A stretch of DNA of 64,000 bases, taken from NCBI GenBank assembly GCA_032622095.1, contig CP136066.1, positions 133,393,917-133,457,916 of the forward strand, in the 5' to 3' direction. Positions 27,197 to 60,359 of the stretch are shown here, in pieces. Every line of letters begins with the position of its first letter. Within the stretch, counting starts at the first letter, position 1. The translations under genes were made by a program, and so were the position numbers. The stretch is from Siphonodentalium dalli. Lineage: Eukaryota > Mollusca > Scaphopoda > Gadilida > Siphonodentaliidae. The notes under the pieces were generated by a model. It ran no database searches and was not told where the DNA came from. It saw only the letters and a list, made by a program, of their open reading frames with translations.

Positions 27197-28375
27197 AATG
27201 AAAGTGTCAATGACACTGTAGCTCAACTTGGAAAGGGAATAATTTCATGTGTTACAGTCAATGGAGTGATTAGGAATGTGGAAAGTTGAAAGGCCTAGTT
27301 ATGCAAAGAGTAAATTCCAAGATGGCCGCTGGCAGCCATGTTTTTTTTGCCGAATGACCCCAAAAAGACTTGTTCCCATTCACATGTCATTGTTAACATC
27401 CATTACAAATTTTATGATGGTCCGACAAAAGATACGACCTGTACCCTATGTGAAAGGATTTAGTCATGTAAAGAGTAAAATACAAGATGACAAGATGTTT
27501 TGTGGGCAAATTACCTCAAAATGACCCGTTTCCCATCTACATGTCATTGTTAACATCCATGACAAATCTCATTATGATCGGACCAAAGCTACGACCTGTA
27601 GCCCACGCCAAAGGATTTAGTCATGCAAAGAGTAAAATCCAAGATGGCTTTTACAATCGTAACCTACAACAAGATGGCTGCTGACGGCCATGTTTTTTGG
27701 CCGAACGACCCCAAAATTACTCGTTCCCATCTACATGTCATTGTTAACATCCATGACAAATCTCATTATGATCGGACCAAAGCTACGACCTGTAGCCCAC
27801 GCCAAAGGATTTAGTCATGCAAAGAGTAAAATCCAAGATGGCTTTTACAATCGTAACCTACAACAAGATGGCTGCTGACGGCCGAACGACCCCAAAATGA
27901 CTCGTTCCCATCTGCATGTCAATATTAACATCATGACAAATTTCATGATGATCAGACCTGTAGCCCACGCCAATGGATATAATTTTGAAGTCCAATATGG
28001 CCGCCAGTGGCCATGTTTTTTGTCCGAATGACCCCATAATGACTCGTTCCCATCTACATGTCAATGTCAACAGCCATGACAAATCTCATAATGATCTGAC
28101 CAAAGGTACAACCTGTAGCATGTGCCAAAGGATTTAGTCATGCAAAGAGTAAAATCCAAGATGGCTGCTGGCGGCCATGTTTTTTGGCCGAATGACCCCA
28201 AAATGACTCGTTCCCATCTACATGTCAATGTCAACATTCATGACAAATTTCATAAAGATCAGACCAAAGATACAACATGTAGCCCAAGCCAAAGGAAATT
28301 GTTGACGGACGCACACACGGACGACGGACGCCGACCCATGGCAATAGCTCAAACTTACAAAGTAAGTTGAGCTAA
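27197..28375 (+). mobile_element. Pearl-like (Helentron-type) element, family 1, copy A
   Basis: It starts AATGAAAGTGTCAATGACAC, with a perfect AGTGTCA-A-TGACACT palindrome, followed by GTAGCTCAACTT. About six core units carry TCCAAGATGGC and a GTTCCCATCTACATGTCA segment. A short (ACGG)-type microsatellite follows, and the end is the hairpin AGCTCAAACTT ... AAGTTGAGCTAA. The AGCTCAACTT motif thus appears near both ends in inverted orientation, like the subterminal repeats of Helentron derivatives. It sits in the intron between LRPPRC exons 9 and 10. Confidence 0.82.
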
Positions 28376-28548
28376 TAAGGAAACAACCAGCCTTATAAGG
28401 GACCTGAAGAAATAAACAGAGGCAAAGGCCTCAAATTATAAAGGAGACCCCTATAAAAACAAGAGAAGCAATCCCAAAGTCAATTCTTTAGGGGGGGCAG
28501 TGTCCTAGTACGAGATCTAGCCCGATGAAAAAACGACTGCCAGCTCAA

Positions 28549-30022
28549 AATGAAAGTTTCAATGACACTGTAGCTCAACTTTGTAAAGAAGGTAATTTTT
28601 TTGTGATGAGCAATGAATAGAGAGATTAAAAAGGAGTGTAAAAAATTAGCAGTAAAGGATTTAGTCATACACAGAGTAAAATCCAAGATGGCAGCTGGCG
28701 GCCATGTTTTTGGGCCGATGACCCCAAAATGACTCGTTCCCATCTACATGTCATTATTAACATCCATGACAAATTTTAAGATTATCAAACTAAAGGTACC
28801 TGTAGCTTAAAGGATTTAGTCATACAAAGTGTAAAATCCAAGATGGCTGCTGGCGGCGATGTTTTTTGTCCGAATGACCCCAAAATAACTCTTTCCCATC
28901 TACATTCTAATTTCAACAGCCATGAAAAATTTCATGATGATCAGACTAAAGGTACGACCTGTAGCCCGTGCTAAAGGATTTAGTCATACAAAGAGTAAAA
29001 TCCAAGATGGCTGCTGGTGGCCATGTGTTATGACCGAAGATGACTCGTTCCCATCTACATATCAATATTAACATCCCTGACAAATTTTATGATGATCAGA
29101 CTAAAGGTATTACCTGTAGCCCGTGCTAAAGGATTTAGTCATACAAAGAGTAAAATCCAAGATGGCTGCTGGTTGCCATGTTTAATGGCCGAATGATCCC
29201 AAAATGACTCGTTCCCATCTACATGTCATTGTTAACATCCATGACAAATTTTATGATGATCACACTAAAGGTACGACCTGTAGCCTGTGCTAAAGGATTT
29301 AGTCATACAAAGAGTAAAATCCAAGATGGGTGCTGGCGGCCATGTTTTTTTGGCTGAATTACCCCAAAATTACTCGTTCCCATCTACATGTCAATGTTAA
29401 CATCCATGACAAATTTCATGATGATCAGACCAAAGGTCCGACCTGTAGCCCGTGCTAATGGATTGAATTTTGAAATCCAAGATGGCTGCTGGCGGCCATG
29501 TTTTTTGTCTGAATGACCCCAAAATCACTCGTTTCCCATCTACATGTCATTGTTAACATCCATGAAAAATATTATGATGATCCGACCAAAGGTACGACCT
29601 GTAGGCCGTGCCAAAGAATTTAGTCATGCAAAGAGTAAACTCTAAGATGGCTGCCGGCAGCCATGTTTTTTGGCCAAACAACCCCAAAATTAGTCGTTCC
29701 CATCTAAATGTCATTATTAACATCCATGATAAATTTCATGATGATCAGACGAACAGTACGACCTGTAGCCCGTGCTAATGGATTGAATATTGAAATCCAA
29801 GATGTTTTTTTCCCGAATGACCCCAAAATGACTCGTTCCCATCTACATGTCAATGTCAACAGCTATGACAAATTTTATAATGATCCGACCAAAGGTACGA
29901 CCTGTAGCCCGTGCTAAAGGAAATTGTTGATGCATCACACACGCACGCACACACACACACACGGACGACGGACGACAAAGTCATGACAATAGCTCAAACT
30001 TTACAAAGTAAAGTTGAGCTAA
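28549..30022 (+). mobile_element. Pearl-like element, family 1, copy B
   Basis: The structure is as in copy A, with eight core units spaced 152 to 167 bp (AAGATGG positions near 28680, 28838, 29003, 29155, 29322, 29478, 29641 and 29798). A CACACACACACACGGACGACGG microsatellite and the same terminal hairpin follow. It lies 173 bp from copy A in the same orientation. The spacing fits the 160-bp cores described for bivalve pearl/BIV160 repeats. Confidence 0.85.
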
Positions 30023-30433
30023 AAAGGATACCCGCTAAAGTGTATTCACACATTTGTGATGGGTATGACGTTCAAAATTTTCAAGGCAGTAAAACTGCCA
30101 AAAGCAGAAAAAAAGATTTTGAATATTGACAGACTTTGTTCATTAAATCATAATGATATTATGCAAGATCATAGCCAGGAGTAGTTCATCTCAAACAGCA
30201 TGAAAATTTTGCGAGCTGTGCCAAATAACTTGTTGTCTAACATACATAGATGTACATATATACGCATAGATGCCATGACAATAATTCAGCCAACTTTATA
30301 TAAAGATATCCAAAATATTGTATGTTGCTTTCAAGGAACAAGTGATGGTCTGGTGACATCTAAGCTATTATGAAGGTAAAGAGTACCTCAAATAAATCTC
30401 TGTCCACCACAAACTCAACATAAGAGCACTTAC

Positions 30434-30535
30434 TTGATTTGTATGTGGGTGATGACCACTTTTCTCTAGTGTAAGGATAGTTTCCAAAAGAATCTCTGGT
30501 TCTAAGACGAAGTCTTTCTCAGCTTTGTTTACAAC
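30434..30535 (-). CDS. LRPPRC: LRPPRC exon 9
   Basis: A 102-bp phase 0 exon between a TAATTTTAG acceptor and a GTAAGT donor. The peptide (ILLETILTLEKSGHHP) corresponds to the human segment LLQIIFSFSKAGYPQ. It is 34 complete codons. Confidence 0.9.
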
Positions 30536-31039
30536 CTAAAATTACAACATAAAATTACATTGACAAAGAGTATATATGAATTAGTAATACAGTGTATGTA
30601 AGTTATGGAGTACAAAATCTAGTCCAATAGTTCGTACAAAATGTTTCAGTTCTCCCTTAAGTAAACCATACATATTCTGTACTTTCTCAAGTGCCATGCA
30701 CATTTCTCTTCTCTCAAGTATACCATTGCATTGTATGTAAGCATATAAAGCATCATTTAATTTTTTTCTTAACTATTTCATTCTTGTTTCTTTTCACTGT
30801 CAAGTATATAGCACATTTTATCTGTTCCCTCTCGGCATACCATCCATGTTGCAGTTCTCTCCATAAAGTTTCAAGAAATTCTAAAAATAATTTTTACACA
30901 GCAAAGATAACAATAATGATATCCCTCCAACATGATAGTAAATGCCTTATAAGACAAAATCATTGGATGTTTTTATATATTACCTTACAGAAAACTATTA
31001 GTTTAAATATATGTAGCTCATAACATGCTTCATATAAAA

Positions 31040-31345
31040 TATTTGTGATTGGGAGTGAGGAAAACTAAACATATTCAGATGAACCATTGGCTGAGATATC
31101 TGCACAGACAAACAAAAAAACCAAGATTTCAAGAAAAACAAAGAAGGATAACTAGAATGGAAAATGCGAACAATGTAATTGGGCTCTCTTTTGTAAGTAC
31201 TCCCGATGCTGACCATCCATATAAAATTACATTCAGATCTGATAACCCTTGGCCCAGATATATGCCAGGATGATCAGACAGACAAACGGACAGGACGATG
31301 GAAAGTGGCAATCCAGTTTACCCCCATTGTTTCTTCGAAAAGTGG
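31040..31345 (+). repeat. Tandem-core-type repeat tail, another family
   Basis: It contains CATCCATATAAAATTACATT, then a CAGACAGACAAACGGACAGG microsatellite, and closes with CAGTTTACCCCC and GTGGGTATAACT around a CTTCGAAAAG loop. This again is the core, microsatellite and palindrome order, as one unit. Confidence 0.5.
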
Positions 31346-31381
31346 GTATAACTAGATAAAGTTAGGTCAATATCTATTCAC

Positions 31382-31469
31382 CTCTAGAACTGCATCCATA
31401 TCTCCCTTCATAGCATAGCCTTTGAGGTACGACTTGTATGTTTCAGCACTTGGCTTCAATCCTGCTTGT
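31382..31469 (-). CDS. LRPPRC: LRPPRC exon 8 (PPR)
   Basis: Acceptor TATTTCCAG and donor GTGAAT bound an exon encoding QAGLKPSAETYKSYLKGYAM, followed by KGDMDAVLE. This is the PPR unit equivalent to human [20 protein letters not shown]. It finishes in phase 0. Confidence 0.93.
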
Positions 31470-32006
31470 CTGGAAATACAAACAGTTTCCAATGAACGAA
31501 ATTGAAATATGGAATTTTGGGGTAACGGAGCATGCATTAGACAATAAATATATACACTGAATAAGAGTTGTCAATGAAGTTCAACTTGACATTAACTATA
31601 AATTGCCAGGTTTGCCCTGTACTGTTATTTATATTTGCAAAAATTCCCAACCTGTACTGTTATTCAACACTGTACTGTTATTTGGCACTCAAGAGTATAA
31701 CATACAGACCAGTCTGAACAACTTTGTAGAATTTTAATTTCGTCAATCGAGTAGGCATTTAAAATTGAAGTTCAATTGCTTCACATGACACTATCACATG
31801 GGAAGAACTTTGAAGAAACCAGATTTTATGTGAACCTAACCACCTAAAACTAGATCTAGCTGAACGCTTTAAATTTCACCAACATTTAGCAGAGAGACCA
31901 TTTTTATTACACAATTAATTTCCCATATTTTCAACTATTTCTGACTTCACCAGGATTTCCCGCATCTTTATTGAGCGTAGAAAAGAGAACAGTTTTAGTT
32001 ACTTAC

Positions 32007-32045
32007 TTCATGATGTCAGCTATTCCTTCTGCATTCTCTATGTCT
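32007..32045 (-). CDS. LRPPRC: LRPPRC exon 7 (39-bp microexon)
   Basis: A 39-bp exon with an AATTTCAG acceptor and GTAAGT donor. Together with the split glycine it reads GDIENAEGIADIMK, matching human GDMENAENILTVMR. It is in frame with both neighbours and is too short to be found by ORF length. A pogo-like element at 32387-33479 lies in the intron on its 5' side. Confidence 0.93.
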
Positions 32046-32386
32046 CTGAAATTTTCCAAGTAATATAATGTAATAATGTTGTGAGCTGGGAACACATTAA
32101 ACCTTTAATAACTGCTTGCTAAGAACAGAGAAATTCATACAATCAAAACGAGATCAATTATCCACTAAAATGAGGAGAGACTCCCGGGACAATTTTAATA
32201 TCTTATGAATATATTTTTCGTGAGAAAGAGAGAGAGAGAAAGTTGGAGTGCCAGTGAGCCTACCCCCTCTCCATCTCATAGTATTATGTCAGTATGTTTT
32301 GTGTTATGTATACAATACTACATGTACATAATATACATAAAATTGAATAAATAATAAAAAAAATAAAAATAATAATAATAATAATA

Positions 32387-33479
32387 CAGACGATCCCACT
32401 TATTAACATAACGGATAAAAACATATCCCGTTTACAACCATAAAATGTTCCTGCACCAAACCATTTACACTGTATTATATGTTAATTTCTACCCTCTAAT
32501 AACATAAGATTTTGATAGACCACCGGTTATAAACATAGAAATATGCAATAACATGTTAACCACGCCGGTAAAACTATGTACACATGCCAGTTAATCGAGA
32601 GGCCATTACAGTTAATTATGTAATTCAATCAATGCAAAGACCGCAAACAAAGAGAAACAAGCTGTGAACGACCACATGGGTGCTTAAGATACTGATAGGC
32701 CTGTCAGCTAATTGGTTTTTATCACTTACAATCTGGCATGTGTGCTCTTTTTAATCCATTTACAATGGGACTTTAATGTACTTTGACAGGGCTTCGAATT
32801 CCGTGTCTGAAACGTTCCAATGTCGCGACATTGCATCACCGCGATCACGCTCAAAATAAGATCCTAATTTGTATGAATAGGAAACGGATGAGTATGTTTA
32901 CTTAAACCCGGTACCATAGTCCCACGCTGTCTGATTCATATCATATAAAACTCAAGCCATACTTTCTCTCATCATAACCATCCAAAATGTCTAAACGTAA
33001 ACGTAACGATTTGTCACTCGGAGTTAAATACGAAAAATGAAAGTAAAGCTTGTTTTACTTTGTGGAATTCCCAGCGGGAAATCCCCTATTCACTCCAATG
33101 TCTACAGATAGAGTTACTCCTCCTGACTTGTAACCGGATGTCGAATTTAGTGAAAATGGAAGCCGACTTGCGGCGCTTAAATTCACTTGTTTCTGGTTCT
33201 TTTTCATGCATAATACTTGCATCAAGATTGATTCTCCAATCATTCATCAAAGTTATGTTGTGTCAAGTTTATTTTGGTGGCATAAAAAGAAGAATAGTAG
33301 AAAAATAAATAAAACAACCGCCATATTCAATGATTGATGATGGCGATGGAAAACGTGGTCAAATGTCCATACAAAGTACACAGAATGGGCCAAATATCGG
33401 AATCCCGCACATAAACATACACGCTTATTAACATAAATTCCTCTTGCACCGAGGCTATGTGATAAAGCGGGATTAACTG
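32387..33479 (+). mobile_element. Small pogo/Tigger-like element
   Basis: It is flanked by TA on both sides. The left end CAGACGATCCCACTTATTAA and the right end, which is the complement of CAGTTAATCCCGCTTTAT, are imperfect inverted repeats. Subterminal TTAACATAA motifs recur. At 32986-33039 a remnant reads MSKRKRNDLSLGVKYEK before a stop, matching the transposase start in the large element at 6766. The two elements are relatives. This one is 1093 bp and lies between LRPPRC exons 6 and 7. Confidence 0.78.
32986..33039 (+). pseudogene. Pogo/Tigger transposase N-terminal remnant
   Basis: Only 17 codons remain (start MSKRKRNDLSLGVKYE), corresponding to the basic N-terminus before the CENP-B-like HTH. 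The frame then stops, and the rest of the transposase is absent. Confidence 0.6.
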
Positions 33480-33600
33480 TAGTAATAATAATGTTGTGAG
33501 CTTCATTTACCAGATAATAAAGTTTGTGATCAATAAAGAGATACATTGTATACTTAGGGAACTGATTTACATCAAACATGACTAATCATAAGATACTCAC

Positions 33601-33687
33601 CCAGACGCAAAATAGCCAGTTATCAAGGAGTTGAAAACATGTTCACTAATGGGCATATCCAGGGCTTTCATCTGTTCCATTAGTTGT
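33601..33687 (-). CDS. LRPPRC: LRPPRC exon 6 (PPR)
   Basis: The exon is bounded by acceptor TACATTCCAG and donor GTGAGT. The peptide runs through MKALDMPISEHVFNSLITG and corresponds to human MKTKDLPVTEAVFSALVTG. Phase is 1 base, 28 codons, then 2 bases. The preceding intron holds a degenerate duplication and a tandem-core repeat element. Confidence 0.95.
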
Positions 33688-34411
33688 CTGGAATGTAAGC
33701 AGAAATATAAACTGCTTGGTCCACTCCCAAGATAGTGTACACCATGGCAGATATGGCTAAATGCATATGCATAACTTCTCAAGGAGAATAAGAATCATAT
33801 CTAAAGTCTGATTATGTCCCTCACAAATCAACATAACGTCATTAGTTGTTCAGATTCAAAAGTGTTGAGGATATAGTTCATCCTCTGAGAAAAACTTTTG
33901 AATATTACAAGAAATTCCAGTCACATATTAATAAAAGACAAAGTATTATAAACACACACAAAGAAGAATAGAGACTATACCTTCTAATTAAATTTTAAGA
34001 TAGAATTAAAAAATTAAACCAGACTTCACCAGTGAAGTTGAAACTTCATCAGTGAAGTTGAAGTTGAAATTTAATTGTGATTCTATGAAGTGATAGAATG
34101 AATGGAAGGAATTGAATATGAAAACATGCATGCACATAATGTGGTCGACACTATTAGAAGCATCTAATTTGCATGATGCCCAATTTTGAAACCATAAAAA
34201 TTTATTCTTTGTTTCAGACTTGTAGTAGCAACATGATGGTTGGTGGGGAGGGACAGTGTATTCAATAACTTTCCTTGATTCCCTTCATAGAATCAAAATT
34301 GTATTTCACCTTCACTGGTGAAGTCACGTTAAATTTGTCAATTTTATGTTGTTCCATCATAAATTCTGTGAACAGAATATGAGATTGTAAAGCCATGCAA
34401 ATTAAAACCAA

Positions 34412-35175
34412 GAACAACTAGAGGTGTGACTGTCCCAATGGGACTAAGGATGCCCCCCCCCCCCCCCCCCCCCCCCGTGTTTTAAAATACTAAGATGCTT
34501 CACATGTCAGTAAACATTTAGTTAAAATAATAAAATAACAGTTCCCATTGCAGGTGCACAAACATAACTGTAATCTTAAACCATGTAGGAATAAAAGCTT
34601 GGACAAAATTATGCATTTTGCAAAAATGTTCTAAGTCGAAAAAGGGGAATAACTCCACAAAAAAAGTCGGACAGACATCATAATCGCAGGTGCACAGGTT
34701 CTCGTGGTACTAAATATCAGTGCCAAGATTAAAAAACATTGACCTAAAAATGTAGAAATAAAAGCTCGGACAAAAGTAGGCATGTTCCAAACAAATTTAT
34801 AAGTCGAAATAAAACCACCAAAAAATGCCAGACAGACGTCATAATCGCAGGTGCACAGGTTCCCATGGTACTAAATATCTGTGACAAGTTAACAAAAAAT
34901 TGACCTAAAAATGTAGGAATAAAAGCTCGGACAAAATTATACATGTTGCGAAAATTTTCTAAGTCGAAAAAGGAGGGACAACTCCACAAAAAAAGTCGCA
35001 GGTGCACAGGTTCCCATGTGCCAAGTTTCACGGATATTGATCCAAAAACAACTGAGAAAAACTCCGGACAAATTTGTGTCCACGGTGCGATGGACGAACG
35101 GACGACGGATGGACGGACGGACAAGCTGACTCCAGTATACCCCCCTAACGTCGTTGCGGGGGGTGTAACTAACTC
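34412..35175 (+). mobile_element. Tandem-core element, family 3
   Basis: The 5' part includes AACTAGAGGTGTGACTGTCC and a poly(C) run at 34455. Three to four core units contain TCTAAGTCGAAAAAGG, CGCAGGTGCACAGGTTC and AATAAAAGCTCGGACAAA. The microsatellite GGACGGATGGACGGACGGAC follows, and the end is a CCCCCCTAACGTCGTTGCGG hairpin. It shares the AAGTCGAAAAAGG stretch with family 2 but is otherwise different. Confidence 0.72.
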
Positions 35176-38100: not shown

Positions 38101-38208
38101 GGTCAGCTGTCTAAGATTCGAGCATTATCTGACACATTTCAACAATATTAGCCCTTAAAATAGCTCCAATAAATTGAGGCGAGAACAATTCTAGATATGG
38201 ACACATAC
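35176..38208. other. Intron sequence without a recognised gene
   Basis: This is the greater part of the intron between LRPPRC exons 5 and 6. It includes a degenerate tandem duplication of about 165 bp (35625-35790 and 35795-35965). Short plus-strand ORFs at 36538-36747 and 36775-37017 have no recognised content. A T-tract with a GGTGGGTAGGTAGGTAGGG motif lies near 37262. Confidence 0.6.
35625..35965 (+). repeat. Degenerate tandem duplication of about 165 bp
   Basis: Two units share TGCTTTCCTTT or TCCTTTCCTTT, TTATTCTxGTATGT, TTGTCAGAT, GATATGTGxCAAT and TATTGGCAGTG in order. Short ORFs partly follow both units, but stops interrupt them. Confidence 0.6.
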
Positions 38209-44052: not shown

Positions 44053-44090
44053 AGAAAGTGTCAATGACACTGAGCTCAACTTGACACTGA
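44053..44090 (+). repeat. Solitary 5' end of pearl-like family 1
   Basis: It contains AAAGTGTCAATGACACTGAG followed by CTCAACTTGACA, the same start as the four full elements, but no core units follow. It is about 20 bp from the acceptor side of LRPPRC exon 3. Confidence 0.6.
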
Positions 44091-44777: not shown

Positions 44778-44953
44778 CTGAAATTGAAAATATTTAAGAA
44801 TTTAATTTTTCAAATAAAAATTACACAATATTTTTCAGTACACAACCCAATTAGATGCATGTTAAATGGCCATTTCACAACCAAAATTGTCAACTTGTGT
44901 CAAGGTGTTTAAAACACTTCCATGACTGGAGCTTACTGAAATTTTGCAAAAAC

Positions 44954-45125
44954 CCTGTGCCAATGCATTCTCTTATATATGCGAGTCTCCCACAGAAAGC
45001 CACTCATATATAAGATAATGCTTTCAATGGCCTAACAATATTTACTTTGACCTTGTAAGCCAGTGAATTCTCTTATATATGTGAGGCTCCCTACCTGCAT
45101 ATATAAGAGAATGCACTGGCACAGG
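44954..45125. mobile_element. 172-bp MITE with TATA-rich hairpins
   Basis: The outer ends CCTGTGCCAATGCATTCTCT and AGAGAATGCACTGGCACAGG are inverted repeats. Inside, ATTCTCTTATATATG occurs twice and faces its complement each time. The AGAGAATGCACTGGxACAGG end also occurs in the 5' modules of family 2 elements (4930-4950 and 46733-46755), so the two share sequence. Confidence 0.65.
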
Positions 45126-46041
45126 ATTTTTAATGCTGCATCAGCGCAGCTCCCGTCATGAAAGGGTTAAAAAAAAATTAAATCCAAAGATAGATAAAGA
45201 TTTATTAGACATACAAAAAAATGTGGTCACTATAGTCAAATGTAAAAAGCCAGACAACTAATCACATGACGCCGATTGACTGTCAGTAACTAATATTCTA
45301 TGGGAGCTCAATGTAGAAGAGATTTGTAGCATTCCAAAGTGAGAAAATATTGATGAATTTTTTCTCTGCATATATCAATGAAAGTGTCAATGACACTGTA
45401 GCTCAACCTGGGGAGGGGTTAATAATAATATGCTGAGCAGACAATAGAAAGATAAATAATAAAAGTCAAAGAGTTTCAGTAACTGTATTGTGTAAATGAA
45501 ATTAATTTCACTTCAAACATTTCTCCACTAAATGTGGGCTGCAGGGTGTGTCAATGGATTTTAATGTCAAATCCAAGATGGGGTCCAGGCTCCAATGATT
45601 TTTAACAAATTTTGGAAGAATTGGACAGCTTCCATCTCGAGGTCAGACCTAACAACAATATGAAGCTTGGATGAGGTGGCATGTAGGGTGTGAGAAATGA
45701 TTTTAGTCATGATAATAGTAATATCCAAGATGGCCACTGGCAGACATGTTTTTTTAACAAATTTCAGAAAACATTGTTGGCTCCCATCCAGAGGTCACCC
45801 CCGAAGATCCTTATGAGATTGGTGATGATCGGGTGAGGGATGTGGCCTGTAGGTTGTGCTGAAGTATTTAGTCATGCAAAGAGTAAAATCCAAGATGGCT
45901 GCTGGCAGCCATGATTTTCAACGAATTTGGAAAACATTGATGGCTCTCATCTAGCGGTCACCCTGAAGATTAATATAAAGTTTGGTGATGATCGGACGAG
46001 GGATGTGGTCTGTAGGATGTGGTCGAAGGATTTAGTCATAC

Positions 46042-48726
46042 TGTAGCGATGTTGCAAAGTATACCTTTAACGTCATAGCGTGTAGTTTCCTACTTTCGGT
46101 TTCGCAACATCGCTTTGTAAACATGCTCATTTTCGTCACCACTTGGCCCATTTATTCACCTCATTCTAGTTATAAACATGCACTTTATCCTATTATATTC
46201 ATCTCATTACGTCACATTTATTATTGTATTTAAACAGCAAGTCGTAATTATTAATATCGGTTGCATTGTTTTATGTTTTAAGTTGGTAATTTGTTCGTAT
46301 TTCGTCCCAGATTCTTAGCACTGTCGGGTTTAGCGGTGACGTCACCAGTTGTGCAACTTCGCCCAACTGACACGCGTCACCGTGACAACCGCTGACCAGC
46401 TCGTAGTCAACTGACCGCTCGTGGTCAACTGACCACTCGTGGTCAACTGACCACTTCCGTATGGTCGTTTTTCTGACCATATTTTTGACCATATGGTCGT
46501 TTTCCGACCACAATATGTGGTTGGATTTATGACCATATGGTTGCCTAGTATAACGAGAGGCCGATCACGATTGGCAGATGTTATCCATCCCTTGGCGATA
46601 GTAAATTATTCTGATCGGAATCATAAATGAGAGTTTTGATGTTGAATTATAGAGTCTACTGTTGGGTACTATTATAGACAATGCACATAACACAAATTAC
46701 TTGAATTTATGTGTCACTCACATTTATATAAGAGAATGCACTGGAACAGGATCTGTAATGCTGAACCACCACAGCCTTGGGTTATATGTGAAAAGGTGAC
46801 CTGGACATGCAATACTTGATCAAGAGATTCCAATATAATGATAATGTATCAAATTCTACCCACAACAGCAATCAAGATAAACACCTCACTGCTGACCGAT
46901 TAATATCTGTTATACAGCAGAGCTGTCAATAAATCACAGGCTTATGTTAAATAGGGCAAGGAATTCAAACTAGATTTATTTTTTTAAGAGTGAATATTTT
47001 TTTTCGAAAAAGAGCCATAAATCAGTTAAAAATTGTCTGATCAAACACATATTCGAACTCGATCTGTCTTTTGTGCTGAGAAATTCATATACAAAATTTG
47101 GTTCCGATCAGATAAAAAATGTTTGAGTTATCGCACCATGCGTAAAGTGTCTACAGACAAACAGATGGATGGACTAATGACAGTTGGTCAATCCGGATGT
47201 TGACACTTCCATACTATGATATGGGTAAAAAAAAATGGTTTGTGGGTATTAAAGTGTAAATTATCCCATCTCCACCAGCATGGGCATGCATTTGAATTTT
47301 TTGTCTGTGAAACACTTGACAAACATGACAAAATATGTGATAAAACACAATTTATTCCCATCTTTCCTGGCATAGAGACCTTCTCAGAAACCCAGAGTAA
47401 GAGCGCAAATTAATTAGATAGAGCAGCCTGTATTATTATAAAGCCAGTGTCCTGTCCCTCAAAAACATATATCTGGTTATGCCTCACACTAATGTCTAAA
47501 AATAACTCATCAAATTATCAATAACTCAGATTTACTGTTTGTCTCTCACAGAGCTAAAGTGATACTGCTGGTAATCAATTAGTTGTTGACTGCTATGGTT
47601 ATCTGTTCAATTCTTAGTTGAAAAAGGCCCATAACTCTGGTATAAAATGTTGGATCTAACCCATATTCAATCTCGATTTGTATTTTGAGTTGAGACACTC
47701 GCATACCAATTTGGTTCTTATCAGTTGAAAAATGGTTGATTTATCAAAATATGCAGAAATTCTATGTCAAAGGGCTATAACTCCATTAAAAAATATCGGA
47801 TCAAACCCATATTCAAACTCGATCTGTATTTTGGTCCGAGAAACTTGCATACCAAATTTGATTCTGATCAGATAAAAAATTATTGAGTTATGGTAGCATG
47901 CATGAATTCTAAGTCGAAAAAGGGCCATAACTCCGTAAAAAAAAACATGGATCGAACCCATATTCGAAATTGATCTGTATTTGGTGATGAGAAATTCATA
48001 TACAAAATTTGGTTCCGATCAGATAGAAAATATTTCAGTTATCGCACCATGCGTAAAGTGTCTAGACAGACAGACGGATGCACGGACTAACGACGAGTGG
48101 TCAATCCGGACAACGACACTATGTTTTATGGTATGGGTAAACATAAAAACAAGTGACCACTTCCGCTGGTCGGCTTTGTAACGGAAATCTCAAGAGAGCA
48201 AGTCAGATTTAGCACCCGTCTTGAGGGTTTGCACACAATTTGGAATTCAAAGCCCGGTATTTCCAATGTGAGCCCAATCATTTGAGTAAACAATAGAAAC
48301 ACTTGATGTGCTATTAATAGGCTTTCTGAAAGTGCCTTTATTGAAGTTTGACTCTACTTTTGTGGCGTAATTTGGAATACCTGTTTCCGTGTATTTGCAC
48401 ACATTTAATGCCCAGATTCTATTCTCTTCTATTGAGTTGTAATCTTAGAGAGCTATCAGTGCTATTGATCACATGAATATATTATAGATGATCATCATTC
48501 TTACCTGTCTGATGGGAATATTATCAGAATAAAACATAATCATTTCTATAAACAAAGTCTTGACTATCTGAATCAGACAGAACCCAATGGCTGGAGGACC
48601 CAGAACCAAGACAAGATTCAATAAGACAGTCAAGACAAGATAGATATATATAATTACAGTAACGAGATATAAAAAGGGGTCAAAGAATCCACTCTACCAT
48701 ATAGTCTGACCCCCACCTCCGTTACA
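46042..48726. mobile_element. Solo-LTR-like insertion in the pearl array
   Basis: The insertion begins TGTAGCG and ends CGTTACA, and is flanked by a 4-bp duplication ATAC (46038-46041 and 48727-48730) that restores the core CATACAAAGAGTAAA. TG...CA ends with a short duplication are typical of LTR retrotransposons, and no internal coding region is present, so a solo LTR is the best reading. About 1.1 kb is LTR-like sequence; the rest is a nested family 2 element. It contains clustered GTGGTCAACTGACC repeats at 46400-46460. Confidence 0.7.
46551..48147 (+). mobile_element. Tandem-core element, family 2, copy 2
   Basis: The 5' module AACGAGAGGCCGATCACGAT is a near-copy of the one at 4748 for about 400 bp. 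Two successive core-plus-tail groups follow: one ending near 47230 (CCATACTATGATATGGG) and one ending at 48147 (TTATGGTATGGGTAAACAT), with GACAGACAGACGGATGCACG before the last. The repeated tail suggests an internal duplication or two tandem elements. It is nested in the LTR-like insertion. Confidence 0.72.
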
Positions 48727-49691
48727 ATACAAAGAGTAAATTCCAAAGCGGCCATGAAGTTTGGTGATCATCAGATGAGGGATGTGGTCTGTAGGGTTTG
48801 TTAAAGGATTTAGACATGCAAAGAGTAAAATCCAAGATGGCTGCCGGCGGCAATGCTTTTCATGGAAAATATTTCATATTTTATAGCTCCTATCTAAAGG
48901 TGATTCTAAAGATGCCTGTAAATTTTTAAATCAATTCTCCGATAAATGTGGAATGCGGGTGTGCCGATGGATTCAAATTTGAAATACAAGATGGCTGCTG
49001 GTGGCCATGTTTTTTAAAAAATTTCTGTCAAAATAGGAGGCTCACATCTAGAGGTCACCCCGAAGATCCATATGAAGTTTGGTGATGATCGGATAAGGGA
49101 TGTTGTCTGTAGGCGTGCCAAAGGATTTAGTCTTGCAAAGAGTAAAATCCAAGATGGCTGCTGGTGGCCATGTTTTTCATCGAAAATCATTCAAATTCGA
49201 TAGCTCCCATCTACAGGTGGTGATCACAATCGTGCCTGCATAATTAAAAAATTATCCGGGCATAAATACGGGTTGTAGGATGTGCCGATGGATTCTAATT
49301 TGAAATCTAAGATGGCTGCAGGCAGCCATGTTTTTCATCGAAATTCAGAAAAATTTGATAGCTCCTATCTATAGGTCACCCTGAAGCTACATATGAAGTT
49401 TGGTAAAGATTGGATAATGGATGCGGCCTGTAGGGCGCACCACAGGAAATTGTTGATGCATGCATACATGGACGCACGGAAAACGGACACCAACCCATGG
49501 CAATAGCTCAAACTTTACATTGTAAAGTTGAGCTAAAAAGGCATGATAGTCCTCAGTTCATTGAGGGTATGGGGTATACTGTAGATGTTAGATGTTGTTG
49601 TAGAGTTGAGGACTTGCAGTCAAGGACACCAAATGACATCATCAAGAGAGACTTCCGGACACCAAAAACCACGAACATTGCTTGTGTTTAC

Positions 49692-51723: not shown

Positions 51724-53085
51724 TTGGAGAAACATTTCACAGAAAACTGCCCCTTTTATTTGGGGGAACACCTACCAGTAAATTGGAAAGATACCGAAAG
51801 TTTTGGAGATATGGCACACCAAAACACAAACCAGAATGCCTTGGGGTGGACCAATCAAACCCACCCATCTCGATACCCCAGTGCTAGTAGGACAGATAGG
51901 ACTGAAACCTCAACTGCGCAAACGATTTCACAAAATACATTCGGTTTGACCCCAGCAGTCGGTGCAACAACAGGGGGAGATTCTAAAACAGGAAATTGAC
52001 AATAGGGAACCAGAAGAGCAATATCCCATGCAAACAAGTACTCCATATATCTCGCAGTCTTGTAAACCAGCAACGGAAAGAATAACACACCCCTATGGAG
52101 AAGTATATCATCCTTATTCCAGCAGCATCGACACTCGGGTTCAATACCAGGAAAAAACGACAATTAACACACTAATTACCAATATTGGGCCAACAGACAA
52201 TGGATCCACAACAAATATACCAATTTCAGAATATTAATCGCCGGTCAAGTTTTAGGGATATGTACCAAGAGGAATCAGACGACTATGATGATTCCTCAGA
52301 CTGATGAACTGATGATGTTGCTAGGACAAGGAAATTGAGGAAGCAATGGATAAAAGAATGCCAGTACCTCACTGAAAAACAGAGTCGGCAACAGAAAAAG
52401 GAACAACACTCGGGGGAACAAATGAGAGGCCCAGCAATAAAACAGGAGGCCGCAAAAAACAACAAATCTATGGGGAACAGAGACCTGTTCCACAACAACA
52501 ATATGGGGAACATAGACCCCCTGTCACAACACCAGTTCTACAGCAAGGGATACCGCAAGTGGTTGGGGGAAAAACAACTTCCTATCGCAGACTTTACTGT
52601 CCCACCCTTGGCTATGGACAGCAAAAGGCGGAACATCATCACCTGGCAGACATGGTACAGGGAGCACAACACACGGCACAAGTACTAGCTAACGAACCCG
52701 AATTACACCCAGAGGCTATCAGTTCAAAATCACCAACAGAGAGAACATGAAGATGGAGCATATCGAGAGAAAGATGACAAACATCGTCAAAGGAACAATT
52801 GTTCTCAGTTCAGAGGACAGGATGACATCAAAATGCCAAGGGCTCCGATGTTTGACAGAGAACCCAATTCGAGTTGGCAAACCTTACAAACCCAGTTCAA
52901 TAATTATGCCGCCATGGGAGAAGGTGTGACCAATATGTGGTGATTCATTTCTATTGTCTCGAAGGTATCGATGGTGATAATTTCACCAGAATAATACAAC
53001 AATCTCCTATAGAGGGACAAGAAATGTTAAGAGTATGGAGGAAAGGTTCGGAATGCACAACATTCCCCCCTCTCATTCTCCCCTC
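51724..53085 (+). pseudogene. Gag-like remnant of an LTR retrotransposon, broken
   Basis: Successive open stretches in changing frames are rich in Q, N, T and S, with a charged coiled-coil-like part near 52330-52450. A late stretch contains FDREPNSSWQTLQTQFNNYA, the 'W--F--QF--Y' pattern of Ty3/Gypsy Gag capsids in invertebrates, and at 53033 a frame reads MEERFGMHNIPP. Multiple frameshifts and stops separate the pieces, and no protease or reverse transcriptase follows. It is inactive. Confidence 0.55.
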
Positions 53086-53345
53086 TCATGCTCTGCCTCC
53101 TGCTATCCCTAACACTATCTTCTCCCTTTTTTTCCATCCCTAAATCAAATTCAGTTATATATCTCCATTTCTCCTAAAACCATTATTTCCAACCCTTCAG
53201 GTCTGATCTATATCCCTCCTTCACTTATTGGGGACGGGGCATGTCACCAAAGAGGAGAAGACTTCATATAAGACTTTGGGCTTGTTGTCTGATCCTCGTT
53301 TCCATACATTAACTCTTCTATTTTGCATATATGTGTCATCTGTAT

Positions 53346-54639
53346 CAGGGTTTCCGCTAGGGGTCGGGGAATGGGTCCGGTAGCTGCTATGGGGGAAACC
53401 CAGTAAATAATTAAATATATGAAGACTGATTTATCTGTAGTTTTACCATTTACCGTACCGGCCGATGTATAAGTCGCAACTCTCTAACCCAATTTCCCTT
53501 ATTAAAAACTTCCTGCGACTTACCGGTATGGTCAAGTTATGAATCGGTATGTGATGAGGGGCATTTTTCATCAGGATTTTGATAAACAAACAGCGATCAC
53601 AGGTAAGCAACAAGACAAAATGTCGGCGCAAAATAAATCTAAAAAGATGATAAATCCGATATTAAAAAAAAGAAATAAACAAACCCATTCTCACTCTGTC
53701 TTTGTGTCTTTATTTTATTCCCTGTCTCACACATTTATATAAAATTATATGTATTAGTATCTGATAATTCAACTGGAAAAGACCAGCAAAACATTGGGCG
53801 TCCTTTACCTGACTAATAATCGTGGACATGTGCATGGTATTCAATGACTGCGGTAAATAGCTTTGATTATCTCTATTATTGTGACACAGTTAACTGCAAA
53901 CTTCTACTAGATGACGTCACATCGGAATGATTATCTAAGCCAGCCCGGGAGGCGGGAACGAGTATTAGACAAACTCTTACTCTGAATTGGGCATTGACGC
54001 GAAGCCGCGAACTTGTGTATGTTGCACAAAGATTCTTTTATGATGATCGCCAGTAGCCCAAGCATTTTCATGCTTCAGTTCGCGACAATGAGGCAACCAC
54101 TAAATTAACGATCCATTGCTCTAAAACAACAGTAAGCCAAGTCGCAATTTTACATTACTATAAATGATACGATATTTGTGTGTTTCCTCATGCCTCAAAT
54201 TATACACATGTTTTATACAAGTTGGAATAATGATGAATAAATTAGTCCAAACATCAATATTCACGTCAAGATAATAAATGAGGCAGTTTTTATGATCCAC
54301 GTTCCCATACTCTGAAGTAAATTGAACCAATATCTCCCTTGATAGGGAATTCCCCACCAATCACGTTGGGGAATCCAGTGGAACTATTTGTGGGGTGTCA
54401 CTATTTATGGTTTGTTCATGCTGTTATTTTTTTTTTCTGAAGATGGACTGTGTCGATTCCATTTGGTTATTATTAATGAAAATAGGATTAAATATCATAT
54501 ATAGCCTGCCGAGACAGACAAAACTGAATAAGTTTTTAATAACGTCATTTATTTGTGTATGTTCGGGATTTCATGGCAAAGGTCGGCAGGGGGAATGGGT
54601 CCGGGCGGCGGACCCGCAGCCGGCCTGGCGGAAACCCTG
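53346..54639. mobile_element. hAT-like element (CAGGGTTTCCGC family), full length
   Basis: It starts CAGGGTTTCCGCTAGGGG and ends CCTGGCGGAAACCCTG. TCTGTAT repeats on both sides (53339-53345 and 54640-54646), consistent with a hAT duplication. It is 1294 bp. The right two thirds match 17909-18700 in inverse orientation. A short ORF starting MSAQNKSKKMINPILKKRNK within 53539-53742 might be a transposase N-terminal remnant, but this is not certain. Confidence 0.82.
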
Positions 54640-54899
54640 TCTGTATATTATGCTATATGTTTGGTTTGGAAATAAAAATATGTTTACACTAAAAATAAAC
54701 TGGATTACCATTGGCAAGAGCAAGAAATTAAATTAAATTTCAAGGCTGAGTTGAGTGACAGACTTCAATGCCAACAAGCAGTCGCAGACGGCGGTATCCC
54801 CTGCCAAATTGTGCAGATGGGGAAGTGCATTCTCAATAATGTTTGCGTTCTCAGTATGTGCTAAACAAGAGGTGGGATTTTGTCAAAAAGCCTGGCTTG

Positions 54900-55465
54900 C
54901 GAACTCATTTTAGGTACTGACATTTGTGGAAATTAGCCATGTGACGTCGTCCATTTGCACCAAAAATAATAAACAAAGTCCAATAACTCCTCTGAAAATA
55001 TCCGGCCAGACCTGGTTTGCGAACTCATTCTAGATACTGCCAAGTCATGTGAACTCATATACCAAAAATCTTTGAAATCCGTTGACATTTGTGGAAATGA
55101 GCCCTGTCGCATCCAATAAGTCCGCTTAAAATATCCGGCCAGACCTGGTTTGCGAACTCATTCTATCTACTGGTCAAGTGAACTCATATACCAAGTATCT
55201 TTGAAATCTGTTGAGATTTGTGGAAGTGAGCCCTGTGACGTCGTCTATTTGCTATTTGGTAAATTTGACAAAATTAATAAACAAAGTCCAATAACTCCAG
55301 TAAAAATATCCAGCCGGACCTGGCTTGTGAACTCATTCTAGGTAATGGTCAGGTGAACTCATATACCAAAACTCTTTGAAATCCGTTGACATTTGTTTAA
55401 GTTATGGGACGGACAGATTCGGACAAATTCGGGACGGACAGACGAACGTTACTACCTAGAAAATG
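54900..55465 (+). repeat. Tandem-core repeat, family 4
   Basis: Three to four units of 130-170 bp contain CAAAGTCCAATAACTCC, ATATCCGGCCAGACCTGG, GCGAACTCATTCTA and ATCTTTGAAATCCGTTGACA. The array ends in GGACGGACAGATTCGGACAA and GACGGACAGACGAACGTTAC. The order of cores and then a GACGGAC tail is shared with the other families. Confidence 0.7.
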
Positions 55466-55469
55466 GTAG

Positions 55470-56050
55470 TCGTGGGGCTAAAACTTTGTGAGTCTGTAAA
55501 AAATGACTTGTGTGGCTTTTATATTTGTTCTTGCAAACAGATAGTTGTGTGCTTTTGTAAACTGTCTGTTCTGTGTGGCTTTTTAAAATAGTTTTTGTTC
55601 TCGCAAATAGATAGTTGAATGAATGAATTACAGTGCATTTTGCGTGGTTTTTAAAATGAATTTGTGAGCCTTTTATCCAAATCTGGCTGTGTCTTGACTC
55701 TTTAGGCGTACATGTAGACACACAATTGTTTTTTATTGTCCAAGTTATGTGGCTAGCCAGAGAAGTCAAAAAAGACACACAAGGGCTTCCTCTCCACAAA
55801 TAAAGCCACACAAAACCCTACTAAAAACGCTTTGACTGAAATGGTGAAGGTGGGTTGTCCTTTTTTTGGTCAATTTGATGGACAGCTGATGGAAAAATAA
55901 TTTTGGGTGGCTTCTGGCAGGCGATTCAGATCCTCACAAAACCCTTTTTTGAATTCTCAATTTTGTTTATTGTCCAAGTTATGTGGCTAGCCACACAAGT
56001 AAAATAAAAGATCAGCAGACCACAGTGTCCCCCGAAAATGTGGCAAGTCG
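55470..56050. repeat. Degenerate repeats with TGTGTGGCTTTT motifs
   Basis: The motif GTGTGGCTTTTxxxxTxGTTCTTGCAAA recurs near 55510, 55580 and 55605, and TTATGTGGCTAGCCA recurs at 55745 and 55980. The complementary AAAGCCACACAAAA occurs near 55802 and 56878. Confidence 0.5.
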
Positions 56051-56074
56051 ATGCCGCTTTGTTGAAGAAATTAA

Positions 56075-56655
56075 AAAAAATGTTGAAATTTTCTAAGTTG
56101 AAGAGGGTTAATAACTCCGTAAAAAAATAAAATTTCCGTCATCTATATACATGTTGCACATCTCCAATATGTGGGTAACAATACTCTGAAGTTTCTAATA
56201 TCTACGATCAAAACTGTAGGAGGAGTTGATTACACCACGAAGGTACCTCATACAAAAAAATGTTGAAATTAAGTCAAAAAGGGTTAATAACTCCGTCAAA
56301 AAAAAAAAAATCCGTCATCTATATACATGTTGCACATCTTCAATATATGGGCAACAATATTCTGCAGTTACAAATCTCTAGGATGAAAACTGTAGGAGGA
56401 GTTGATTACAACACGAAGGTACCCTCATACCGAAAATTATAAAAAATGTTGAAATATTATAAGTCGAAAAGGGTTAATAACTCCGTCAAAAAATAATTTT
56501 TCCGTCATCTATATACATGTTGCACATCTTCAATGTATGGGCAACAATATTCTGAAGTTTCAAATCTCTGGGACGAAATCTGTAGGAGGAGATGATTACA
56601 CCATGAAGGTACTCAAAAGTGTGATGGACGGGACCGACCGACGGACGAACGGTCT
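56075..56655 (+). repeat. Tandem-core repeat, family 5
   Basis: Three units of about 190 bp start near 56080, 56255 and 56440. They contain GGGTTAATAACTCCGT, CCGTCATCTATATACATGTT and CTGTAGGAGGAGTTGATTAC. The array ends in GGACGGGACCGACCGACGGA. It is followed by an inverted copy of one unit. Confidence 0.75.
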
Positions 56656-56767
56656 TATAATATTTCAACATTTTTTATAATTTTCGGTATGAGGGTACCT
56701 TCGTGTTGTAATCAACTCCTCCTACAGTTTTCATCCTAGAGATTTGTAACTGCAGAATATTGTTGCC
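56350..56767. repeat. Perfect 114-bp inverted repeat
   Basis: The segments 56350-56463 and 56654-56767 are exact reverse complements over 114 bp, with a spacer of 190 bp containing the last core and microsatellite. Perfect identity means a recent event or conversion. Each arm can fold back on the other. Confidence 0.85.
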
Positions 56768-56985
56768 ATGTCTACATGACAATATTATCATCCATGACCG
56801 ACCCCGTTTCTATAGTCCCCCAAAAATAAATTTTTCGGGGGACAAAAAATCACACAAGGGCTTCCTCTCCACAAGTAAAGCCACACAAAATCCTCTCGTG
56901 AGAGCGGACGGACAGGCAGACGGACAGACAGACGGAACCCATTCCTATATCCCCCACAAATTTTCAATTTGGCGGGGGTAAAAAA
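56768..56985 (+). repeat. Repeat tail with microsatellite and terminal hairpin, family 6
   Basis: It contains a TCCCCCAAAAATAAATTTTT hairpin, a GGACGGACAGGCAGACGGAC microsatellite and a closing ATCCCCCACAAATTTTCAAT hairpin with GGCGGGGGTAAAAA. The order again is microsatellite and then 3' palindrome. Confidence 0.6.
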
Positions 56986-57081
56986 TGCTTCATGATCATG
57001 TGATGTCAATAAAACTGAAGACCACCCACATGCACAAGCTCTACAAACAAGGCAAGCAGTACACATCGGTCACCAGCAAAG

Positions 57082-57380
57082 AGTAAGCAAATAGCATACA
57101 AGACATTAGTAAGATCAAAACTTGACTATGATACTGAGGTATTGGATCTGTTCCTGCAAAAAAACATCAATGCAATTGAACGGATCCAGAAACGAGCCGC
57201 CAGATTTATCTCAAATGAGTGGAGATCCAGCGAAGAAGGAGCTGTCACAGCCATGACAAACATCTAGGACTCCATGCACCCACTCCCAGATAGAACACAG
57301 ACTCAGAAGTTGACAATCTTCCATAAAATAATTGATGGGAAGTTACCATCTGTCACATTCCATGACATATTAACTGATAA
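57082..57380 (+). pseudogene. LINE reverse transcriptase C-terminal fragment
   Basis: One frame reads IAYKTLVRSKLDYDTEVLDL and then IERIQKRAARFISNEW, the post-palm and thumb signature of CR1/Jockey-like LINE reverse transcriptases. A single internal stop (near 57266) and the loss of both sides make it a dead fragment. It is cut on its right by the pearl-like element starting at 57380. Confidence 0.75.
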
Positions 57381-60359
57381 ATGAAAGTGTCAATGACACT
57401 GTAGCTCAACTTGGAAAGGGAATAATTTAATGTATTACAGTCAATGGAGCCATTAGGAATGTGGAAAGTTGAATATCTAATACATGTTTATAGACATGAA
57501 GAGAAAAGTAAAATCCAAGATGGCTGCTGGCAAATTTTATGACGATCAGACTAAAGGTACGACCTGTAGCCCATGCTAAAGAATTTAGTCATACAAAGAG
57601 TAAAATCCAAGATGGCTGCTGGCGGCCATGTTTTTGGTCCGAATGACCCCAAAATGACTTGTTCCCATCTACATTCCAATTTCAACATTCATGACAAATT
57701 TCATGATGATCAGACTAAAGGTACAACCTGTAGCCCGTGCTAAAGGATTTAGTCATACAAAGAGTAAAATCCAAGATGGCTGCTGGCGTCCAGGTTTTTT
57801 GGCCGAATGACCCCAAAATTACTCGTTCCCATCTACATGTCATTGTTAACATCCATGACACATTTTATGATGATCAGACTAAAGGTACGACCTGCAGCCC
57901 GTGCTAAAGAATTTAGTCGTACAAAGAGTAAAATCCAAGATGGCTGCTGGCGGCCATGTTTTTTGGCCGAATGACCCCAAAATTACTCGTTCCCATCTAC
58001 ATGTCAATATTATCATCCATGACAAATTTCATGATCATCAGACAAACAGTACGACCTGTGGCCCGTGCTAAAGGATTAAATTTTAAAATCCAAGATGGCC
58101 ACTGGCGGCCATGTTTTTTGTCCGAATGACCCCAAAATAACTCGTTCCCATCTACATTCCAATTTCAACAACCATGACAAATTTTATGATGATCAGACTA
58201 AAGGTACGACCTGTAGCCCATGCTAAAGAATTTAGTCATACAAAGAGTAAAATCCAAGATGGCTGCTGGCGGCCATGTTTTTCGGCCGAATGACCTCAAA
58301 ATGACTCGTTCCCATCTACATGTCATTATTAACATTCATGACAAATTTCATGATGATCAGACTAAAGGTACAACCTGTAGCCCGTGCTAAAGGATTTAGT
58401 CATACAAAGAGTAAAATCCAAGATGGCTGCTGGCGTCCAGGTTTTTTGGCCGAATGACCCCAAAATTACTCGTTCCCATCTACATGTCATTGTTAACATC
58501 CATGACACATTTTATGATGATCAGACTAAAGGTACGACCTGCAGCCCGTGCTAAAGAATTTAGTCATACAAAGAGTAAAATCCAAGATGGCTACTGGCGG
58601 CCATGGTTTTGGCCGAATGACCCCAAAATTACTCGTTCCCATCTACATGTCAATATTATCATCCATGACAAATTTCATGATGATCAGAAGAACAGTACGA
58701 CCTGTGGCCCGTGCTAATGGATTAAATTTTTAAACACAATATGGCCGCTGGCGGCCATGTTTTTTGTCCGAATTACCCCAAAATGACTCGTTCCCATCTA
58801 CATTCCAATTTCAACAACCATGACAAATTTTATGATGATCAGACTAAAGGTACGACCTGTAGCCCGTGCTAAAGGATTTAGTCATACAAAGAGTAAAATC
58901 CAAGATGGCTGCTGGCGGCCATGTTTTTTGGCCGAATGACCCCAAAATGACTCGTTCCCATCTAACTGTCATTATTAACATTCTTGACAAATTTTATGAT
59001 GATCAGACTAAAAGTAGGACCTGTACTCTTGGGCTCCAAATAAACATACATGCACGTTTATTAATTTCTTGGGAAATTTCCCCCCTGCACGGTGCTTATT
59101 TGGGTCTGCATGTTTATTAATTTTGAGGCTATGAAAAAAGAAATCATCACAAACTCAAGATTTCTACATGATTCTGATATCAAAATGGTGAGCTTATAAC
59201 TTTATGCATGTACATATTCAAGTGTATGGCATATATGTGAACATTTAAATATTGAACAAAACACCACATGCCACATACTATAATGTTGATTCCTATAACT
59301 GACATACTTTAAAAATAATTGTTTACCACAGTTATGTTGATGTTTTGCTCAGAGTTCCCCCTGTACTATTATTTGGGTCTGCACTTTTATTAACTTTAAA
59401 TGGAATTTCCTCCCTGCACTATTATTTGGGCCTGCACTTTTATTTGGAGCCCGAGAGTAGCCCGTGCTAAAGGATTTAGTCATACAAAGAGTAAAATCCA
59501 AGATGGCTGCTGGCGACCATGTTTTTTAGCCAAATGACCTCAAAATTACTCGTTCCCATCTACATGTCAATATTATCATCCATGACAAATTTCATGGTGA
59601 TCAGACGAACAGTACGACCTGTGGCCCGTGCTAATGGATTAAATTTTGAAATCCAAGATGGCTGCTGGCGGCCATGTTTTTTGTCAGAATGACCCCAAAA
59701 TGACTTGTTCCCATCTACATTCCAATTTCAACAGCCATGACAAATTTTATGATGATCAGTCTAAAGGTACGACCTGTAGCCCGTGCTAAAGGATTTAGTC
59801 ATACAAAGAGTAAAATACAAGATGGCTGCTGGTGGCCATGTTGTTTGGCCGAATGACCCCAAAATGACTCGTTCCCATCTACATGTCATTATTAACATTC
59901 TTGACAAAATTTATGATGATCAGACTAAAAGTACGACCTGTAGCCCGTGCTAAAGAATTTAGTCATACAAAGAGTAAAATCCAAGATGGCTGCTGGCGGC
60001 CATGTTTTTGGGCCGAATGACCCCAAAATTACTCGTTCCCATCTACATGTCAATATTAACATCCATGACAAATTTCATGAAGATCAGACAAACAGTACGG
60101 CCTGTAGCCCGTGCTAATGGATTGAATTTTGAAATCCAATATGGCCACTGGCGGCCATGTTTTTTTTCCGAATGACCCCAAAATTAATTATTCTGGTCTA
60201 AATGTTGATGTGAACAGCTATGACAAATTTCATAATGATCCGACGAAAGGTACGACCTGTAGCCTGCATTGTTGACGCCTTACGTACACACGCACACACG
60301 GACGACGGACGACAAAGCCATGGCAATAGCTCAAACTTTACAAAGTAAAGTTGAGCTAA
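57380..60359 (+). mobile_element. Pearl-like element, family 1, copy C (longest array)
   Basis: The 5' start and 3' hairpin are as in copies A and B, with about fifteen core units and an ACACGGACGACGGACGACA microsatellite. Many units are almost identical, alternating between two types (with GCTGGCGTCCAGG or GCTGGCGGCCATG), which points to expansion by blocks of several units. A 432-bp MITE at 59026-59457 interrupts it. Confidence 0.85.
59026..59457. mobile_element. TA-flanked MITE inside the pearl array
   Basis: The ends CTCTTGGGCTCCAAATAA and TTATTTGGAGCCCGAGAG are inverted repeats with one mismatch. TA flanks both sides, and removing the element restores the core CCTGTAGCCCGTGC. Inside, CCCTGCACxxTxxTTATTTGGG motifs repeat near both ends. 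TA duplication suggests Tc1/mariner-type mobilisation. A fragment with similar CTGTACTGTTATTTGGCACT motifs lies at 31610-31695. Confidence 0.82.

Follow-up and report, generated by a model that had tools for sequence, protein, structure and literature searches.

The HINEs, or non-autonomous Helentrons, are described as a succession of a 5' subterminal inverted repeat (subTIR), an inverted repeat, a microsatellite, core repeats, a 3' subTIR and a palindrome (PMC7492417). In its description of such elements, the same study presents Cg_HINE of the oyster Crassostrea gigas as 11 HINEs that follow a single plan with cores of several unrelated kinds, 6 of the 11 having a microsatellite of the GTCY, GTCC or GTCK type, and it recounts that the Pearl elements of bivalves (CvE, MgE), which contain short arrays of ~160-bp central repeats, were first described as miniature inverted-repeat transposable elements (MITEs) and later re-categorised as non-autonomous Helentrons (PMC7492417). 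The DINE-1/HINE elements of insects and mites possess subTIRs, a microsatellite, optional tandem repeats and a 3' stem-loop; in DINE-1 an inverted repeat adjoins the 5' subTIR, and the family criteria given for them are a subTIR identical over at least 11 bp and 80% over the last 60 bp (PMC4067079). Here, a stretch of 64,000 nucleotides from the scaphopod mollusc Siphonodentalium dalli (contig CP136066.1, positions 133,393,917 to 133,457,916; hereafter the window, to which all coordinates refer) is analyzed, and 16 repeat-bearing elements or relics within it are very probably copies of several HINE families that follow one plan and whose modules may have been exchanged by template switching.

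Along the window, the parts of these elements are ordered as palindrome, S, cores, (GAC)n, S, loop and S', the reverse complement of the HINE plan. The plan therefore lies reversed on the plus strand, and all 16 copies (designated A1, G15, relic17, F24, B1, B2, t31, C, RF44, Bdiv, A2, A3, D, E, H and B3) are listed on the minus strand with the 5' end toward higher coordinates. A first-pass annotation of this DNA had proposed a modular order of 5' module, tandem cores, microsatellite and 3' palindrome; the layout is real, and the 5' and 3' assignments are inverted by the subTIR and hairpin tests: what was called the 3' palindrome is the 5' subTIR with its inverted repeat, and the 5' module contains the 3' subTIR and palindrome. 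The ends were tested in 13 elements, with relic17, F24 and RF44 left out for want of two ends. In the following, the bracketed fractions are the shuffles reaching the observed hairpin stem score (of 200) or the observed subTIR pair between the two ends (of 1000), and z is the score of six hairpins folded as DNA.

The complete order can be seen in the layout of 7 of the 16. Element A1 (4752-6083), family 1 of the first pass, comprises a 3' end with a subTIR at 4775-4803, two cores (5699-5987), a GAC array (5995-6021) and the 5' hairpin of subTIR and inverted repeat (6046-6078; stem 0/200, subTIR 6/1000, z -4.9). The three B elements are B1 (27197-28378: 3' palindrome 27203-27217, subTIR 27219-27229, six B cores, GAC array 28304-28330, 5' hairpin 28345-28374; stem 4/200, subTIR 1/1000), B2 (28548-30026: subTIR 28571-28582, eight B cores, array at about 29940-29980, hairpin 29990-30021; stem 1/200, subTIR 9/1000, z -6.2) and B3 (57381-60363: palindrome 57386-57400, subTIR 57402-57412, about 14-15 B cores, some of them partial, array 60289-60310, hairpin 60327-60358; stem 2/200, subTIR 3/1000). 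Their divergent relative Bdiv (45377-49539) has a 3' palindrome at 45383-45397, cores at 45566-46041 and 48743-49453, a weak array near 49467 and a hairpin at 49504-49535 (stem 12/200, subTIR 29/1000 with 9 matching bases). Element E (56012-56849) carries a subTIR (56026-56038) that is complementary to the hairpin arm in 13 of 13 bases, three cores (56087-56614) that are ~87% alike, a GAC array (56632-56653) and a hairpin (56815-56843; stem 2/200, subTIR 1/1000, z -4.8), and element C (34412-35172) carries a palindrome (34432-34444), about three cores (34631-35075), a GAC array (35089-35130) and a C-rich hairpin (35136-35167; stem 7/200, z -1.9), its end-to-end match not being significant. A HINE is expected to carry subTIRs of about 11-15 bp near both ends; here the subTIR pair beats the shuffles in 6 of the 13 tested elements, and an inverted repeat adjoins the 5' subTIR at no more than 15/200 shuffles in 8 of them, the eighth being A3. 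The 3' palindrome AGTGTC-AAT-GACACT is visible in B1, B3, Bdiv and RF44, and its counterpart in C reads GTCCC-AAT-GGGAC.

The remaining nine copies are incomplete. A2 (46553-47232) has an A1-like 3' end, one core (47004-47149) and a degenerate array and end, and A3 (47611-48148) has three A cores, a GAC array (48065-48087) and a hairpin (48120-48145; stem 15/200); D (54890-55475) consists of cores (54890-55400), GAC arrays up to 55447 and a hairpin (55451-55470; z -3.35), and a 3' end was found neither in A3 nor in D. In G15 (15022-15440), a B-like 3' end (15022-15056) is combined with a single A-type core (15220-15318) and a GAC array (15369-15387), and F24 (24003-24446) contains 2.7 A-superfamily cores. 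Two tails were recovered, t31 (31040-31358, limits set by eye) with a GAC array at 31277-31296, and H (56895-56985), in which cores were not found, with a GAC array at 56907-56937 and a hairpin at 56951-56977 (z -3.7); the tail that the first pass placed at 56768 resolves into two things, namely a patch with the true end of E and this separate tail H. The smallest relics are a single B-type core at 16903-17021 (relic17, Bdiv profile E 5.7e-9) and, at 44054-44083, a B-type 3' end that stands alone with its palindrome and subTIR (RF44, E 2.5e-6).

A GACGG-type pattern allowing up to 3 mismatches has 29 matches on the plus strand (one of them, at 27877, within a core), as against 0.74 expected from dinucleotide shuffles, and none on the minus strand, which rules out that the layout arises by chance alone. 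Twelve of the 16 copies carry, on their window-3' side, a GAC-based array of short units, the weakest being that of Bdiv (3 mismatches in 15), and in most of these 12 it is followed by a stem-loop; the array is degenerate in A2 and was not seen in F24, relic17 or RF44 (3/16). The first pass had judged the microsatellite almost identical across families. The arrays are indeed similar, but not nearly the same, with the B family mixing CACACG units with GACGGAC units, and the literal GACGGACGG occurs only twice in the window. Arrays of (GTCY)n are reportedly also present in lepidopteran elements. Outside the elements there are weak GAC clusters, seven on the plus and six on the minus strand, and four of the latter six (13499 and 53693 are not among these four) contain no HINE parts on inspection.

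Cg_HINE, as described in the oyster study, and the window elements are alike in subTIRs, inverted repeat, GTC-type microsatellite, cores (mostly of 140-180 bp in Cg_HINE) and fixed core orientation, and the palindrome and T-rich targets of Cg_HINE have candidate counterparts here; the study also reports related flanks with unrelated cores (group 2) and some cores with only two conserved segments in common (PMC7492417). The DINE-1/HINE structural class likewise matches (PMC4067079), and Pearl elements share the short arrays of central repeats; all of these likenesses are by description and not by sequence. The link to Pearl elements and Helentrons drawn in the first pass fits this evidence, the order in the window being that of HINE anatomy, and its claim that a tail shared by unrelated families is little noticed does not hold, given that the plan and the GTC-type microsatellites in 6 of 11 elements have already been published (PMC7492417). 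The plan, unrelated cores, the GTC-type microsatellite, fixed core orientation and T-rich targets are thus already known from the oyster. What the window adds, all from this one window, is a template-switch-like patch in a microsatellite, a homologous core block common to most core families and a run of elements in one orientation. Relatives elsewhere were not found in pattern scans of viral contigs and of genome contigs, the latter for the A block only; the viral-contig matches, one per pattern (L001 and L002), were taken as chance, the parts inspected being without such arrays.

Tandem arrays were found at all the family starts named in the first pass, with consensus monomers of 123-182 bp, and comparison of these monomers (300 shuffles per pair; B consensus from 15 chosen monomers) distinguishes two superfamilies. 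The A superfamily includes the cores of A, C, D, E, F (the F24 core) and G15, with 0/300 shuffles for the pairs A-C, A-D, A-E, A-F, A-G15, C-E, C-G15 and F-G15, and weaker values for C-D and C-F (3/300 each) and E-G15 (5/300); the pairs D-E (35), D-F (101), D-G15 (72) and E-F (12 of 300) are not significant directly and are linked via A or C. A block running from AAGTCGAAAAAGGG to ATAACTCC is common to most pairs. The second superfamily consists of B, Bdiv45 and Bdiv48 (0/300 each). Families had been reported to differ in their cores, and this stands only for the CAAGATGGC family (27197/57383), which alone is set apart: four of the five named families, those at 4748, 34412, 54900 and 56075, share homologous cores beneath hairpins that differ in sequence. 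A common origin of A- and B-type cores is unsupported, B-A giving 18/300, and Bdiv48-C (1/300), the best of 18 cross pairs, is the sole one that hints at a possible link.

Conservation within the B superfamily was measured on 32 monomers, 25 of the 30 B matches (5 partial ones dropped) plus 7 divergent ones (48700-48829 dropped, 45566 added). It is concentrated in the CCAAGATGGC stretch, where B and Bdiv show 95% identity, as against 34-83% in the other stretches of ten bases. The best-conserved 8-mers, AAGATGGC and CAAGATGG, are each retained without change by 26 of the 32 monomers (median 41%), and 29 of the 32 keep AANATGGC intact. The word CAAGATGGCNGC has 25 exact sites, all on the plus strand (323 and 27318-59993), where 0.03 are expected, and 24 of the 25 fall in B-type elements. 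Outside the recognised elements, 310-345 contains a closely spaced tandem pair of CCAAGATGGC words, of which the second reads CAAGATGGCGGC, with a weak likeness to the B core (E 0.18). By its letters, AAGATGGC matches the YY1 motifs AAGATGGCG and CGCCATNTT cited in one source (PMC4871433) and is a putative binding site of a YY1-like factor. No paper on a Helentron with YY1 was found in the open-access literature searched, and among the open-access matches listed for the conserved B-core words none was, judged by title, a mollusc paper.

Evidence for the exchange of modules comes mainly from a patch at 56654-56798, placed inside the GAC array of element E. Its first part (56654-56767) is an inverted copy of E's own core at 56350-56463, identical in 114 of 114 positions, and its second part (56771-56798, 28 bp) matches three B3 cores in 27 of 28 positions and is followed by GACCGACC and the hairpin; within the window, the word AATATTATCATCC is found only in this patch and in the three B3 cores, 1.2-2.8 kb away. 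The patch is most simply read as the product of recent template switching during replication, with the microsatellite as the switch point and possibly in place. G15, in which the B-like 3' end (28/35 bases, E 0.001) is joined to an A-type core (E 3.7e-9) at 15.0-15.4 kb, may be a second, weaker sign of exchange, and together the two lend some support to the module exchange suggested in the first pass. In the oyster study, exchange is discussed in terms of hypotheses, filler DNA and cut-and-replace (PMC7492417); the patch in E offers a concrete joint for such exchange.

Following Helentron biology, an autonomous partner would supply a Rep/helicase that recognises both ends, the subTIR hairpin on the 5' side and the subTIR with its palindrome on the 3' side, and that copies the element by rolling circle into T-rich sites. 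The tandem cores would then be passengers whose number varies through slippage or unequal exchange, the common plan would reflect the end structures required by the transposition machinery, and the GAC/GTC microsatellite, which has the 5' hairpin on one side and the cores on the other, may act as a joint for template switching, of which the patch in E would be one instance; by such switching, we propose, cores and ends are re-paired. One replication mechanism that needs this layout, as the first pass put it, fits the evidence. The window is a compact example of HINEs that carry satellite-like repeats and of possible re-pairing of cores and ends.

The 16 elements or relics have a single polarity, in which every assigned core, end and array is included except the patch in E. 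This run was noticed post hoc and in one window. In a search with 12 profiles on both strands, controlled with reversed sequence, only the patch and a segment at 44951-44994, part of a local inverted repeat, match in the opposite orientation at E<1e-3. Matches with E from 0.0014 upward coincide for the most part with palindromic portions of the elements themselves, and one independent weak candidate lies at 25082-25140 (E 0.0032, the best reversed control for that profile being 0.48). The two-sided p is ~3e-5 for 16 of 16, ~2.7e-4 for 16 of 17 with the weak candidate included and ~0.004 for 9 of 9 with one copy per core or tail family. Chance, rated highest of three explanations, is somewhat favoured: the run was seen after the fact, the sample shrinks to nine when each core or tail family is counted once, and such runs occur across thousands of windows, although the first two p values, and the balanced background of GAC clusters outside the elements noted above, speak against it.

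A less likely, indeed rather doubtful, explanation is transcriptional, with opposite-oriented copies purged, for example via splice-like sites, from the introns of a minus-strand LRPPRC-like pentatricopeptide repeat (PPR) gene. The gene itself is backed by homology at 30.4-33.7 kb: its joined exon peptides match PPR_2 (E 2.8e-9), designed PPR proteins are the best matches in PDB (E 1.6e-34), and LRPPRC (8any_A5) matches peptide residues 42-148 from this region (E 5.2e-27). With the outer exons predicted by splice-site scoring alone, the gene would reach about 44.0 kb on one side and 16.6 kb on the other (16591-44032, minus strand), limits that enclose F24, relic17, B1, B2, t31 and C, all in gene sense; however, 10 of the 16 elements lie outside even these predicted limits. 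Improbable is a dependence on replication, by analogy with the bacterial IS200/IS605 elements, which follow fork direction (PMC5371812): a preference for the lagging-strand template at insertion or survival would co-orient unrelated neighbours, as in the 16 of 16 here, while oyster HINEs overall are described in both orientations (PMC7492417), but the observation is post hoc and from a single window with a weak opposite candidate, part of the copies are nested or belong to the same family, and the copies are apparently of different ages, so that fork direction would need to have stayed constant. A broader conjecture, that HINE families keep one polarity over ~55 kb via single-stranded DNA intermediates entering the lagging-strand template, and would thereby record germ-line fork direction, with the GAC/GTC microsatellite as a fork-stalling joint for swapping cores, is highly improbable. 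If the run recurs genome-wide, the constraints that replication or transcription places on eukaryotic rolling-circle elements could be read from sequence.

Several results weigh against the assignment of the 16 copies to HINEs. The autonomous partner was not found: the scan took in 85 of the 135 window open reading frames (ORFs) with 70 aa or more, the 50 omitted being mostly, but not only, inside repeats or short, and no Helitron or Pif1 Pfam match appeared at E<=0.01, the families matched being zf-RVT (E 5.8e-4) and EMP24_GP25L (E 0.0014); for the copies themselves, the lack of such a match is in line with non-autonomous elements. The subTIR pair is not significant in 7 of 13 elements (A2, C, D, G15, A3, t31, H), of which C fails because its hairpin arm is poly-C (983/1000), and in D, A3, t31 and H the 3' end is not recognised and the stretch tested is therefore a guess. 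The hairpin stem is not significant in 5 of 13 (A2 157, D 43, G15 64, H 48 and t31 98 of 200 shuffles), and the 3' palindrome alone, sought in a 60-nt stretch, is significant in none of the 13 (best t31, 16/200). The patch in E is a single case, and only one empty site was found, again that of E: its joined flanks align at a paralogous A-rich target (55723-55819, plus strand) ~0.2 kb upstream. E itself lies within an A-rich run, T-rich in the HINE sense, and a target duplication is not obvious, so that this one site does fit a HINE insertion. That the copies are instead foldback or MITE-like elements with terminal inverted repeats (TIRs) moved by a cut-and-paste transposase is very improbable, for although inverted repeats are present near both ends and Pearl was once described as a MITE (PMC7492417), the repeats lie subterminally, a single end bears the hairpin pair and the empty site of E is T-rich with no obvious duplication.

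Two HINEs are themselves interrupted. Bdiv appears as two arrays in the output of the tandem-repeat finder, and the repeats at 45.4-49.5 kb are read as one split element because the flanks of a 2.7-kb DNA transposon (46046-48721; ends TGTAGCG/CGTTACA), which contains A2 and A3, rebuild a B core with ATAC duplicated, as judged by eye. A core of B3 is split by a TIR element at about 59025-59456 with CTCTYGGGCTCCAAATAA ends and, also by eye, a TA duplication. Beyond B3, 61165-61506 (plus strand) is a probable fragment of a non-long-terminal-repeat retrotransposon, the zf-RVT match mentioned above being below the Pfam cut-off, and B3 may, by eye, be inserted in a fragment related to it. The local inverted repeat near RF44 extends, imperfectly, over 44951-45154 and includes a stretch common with the inner 3' part of A1 and A2, in both directions. 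A 31-bp match in opposite orientation between 54609-54639 and 17909-17939 is possibly the end of another transposon family, and near-perfect long inverted repeats occur at 9259-9413 (64 nt, 98%) and 15781-15881 (37 nt, 92%).

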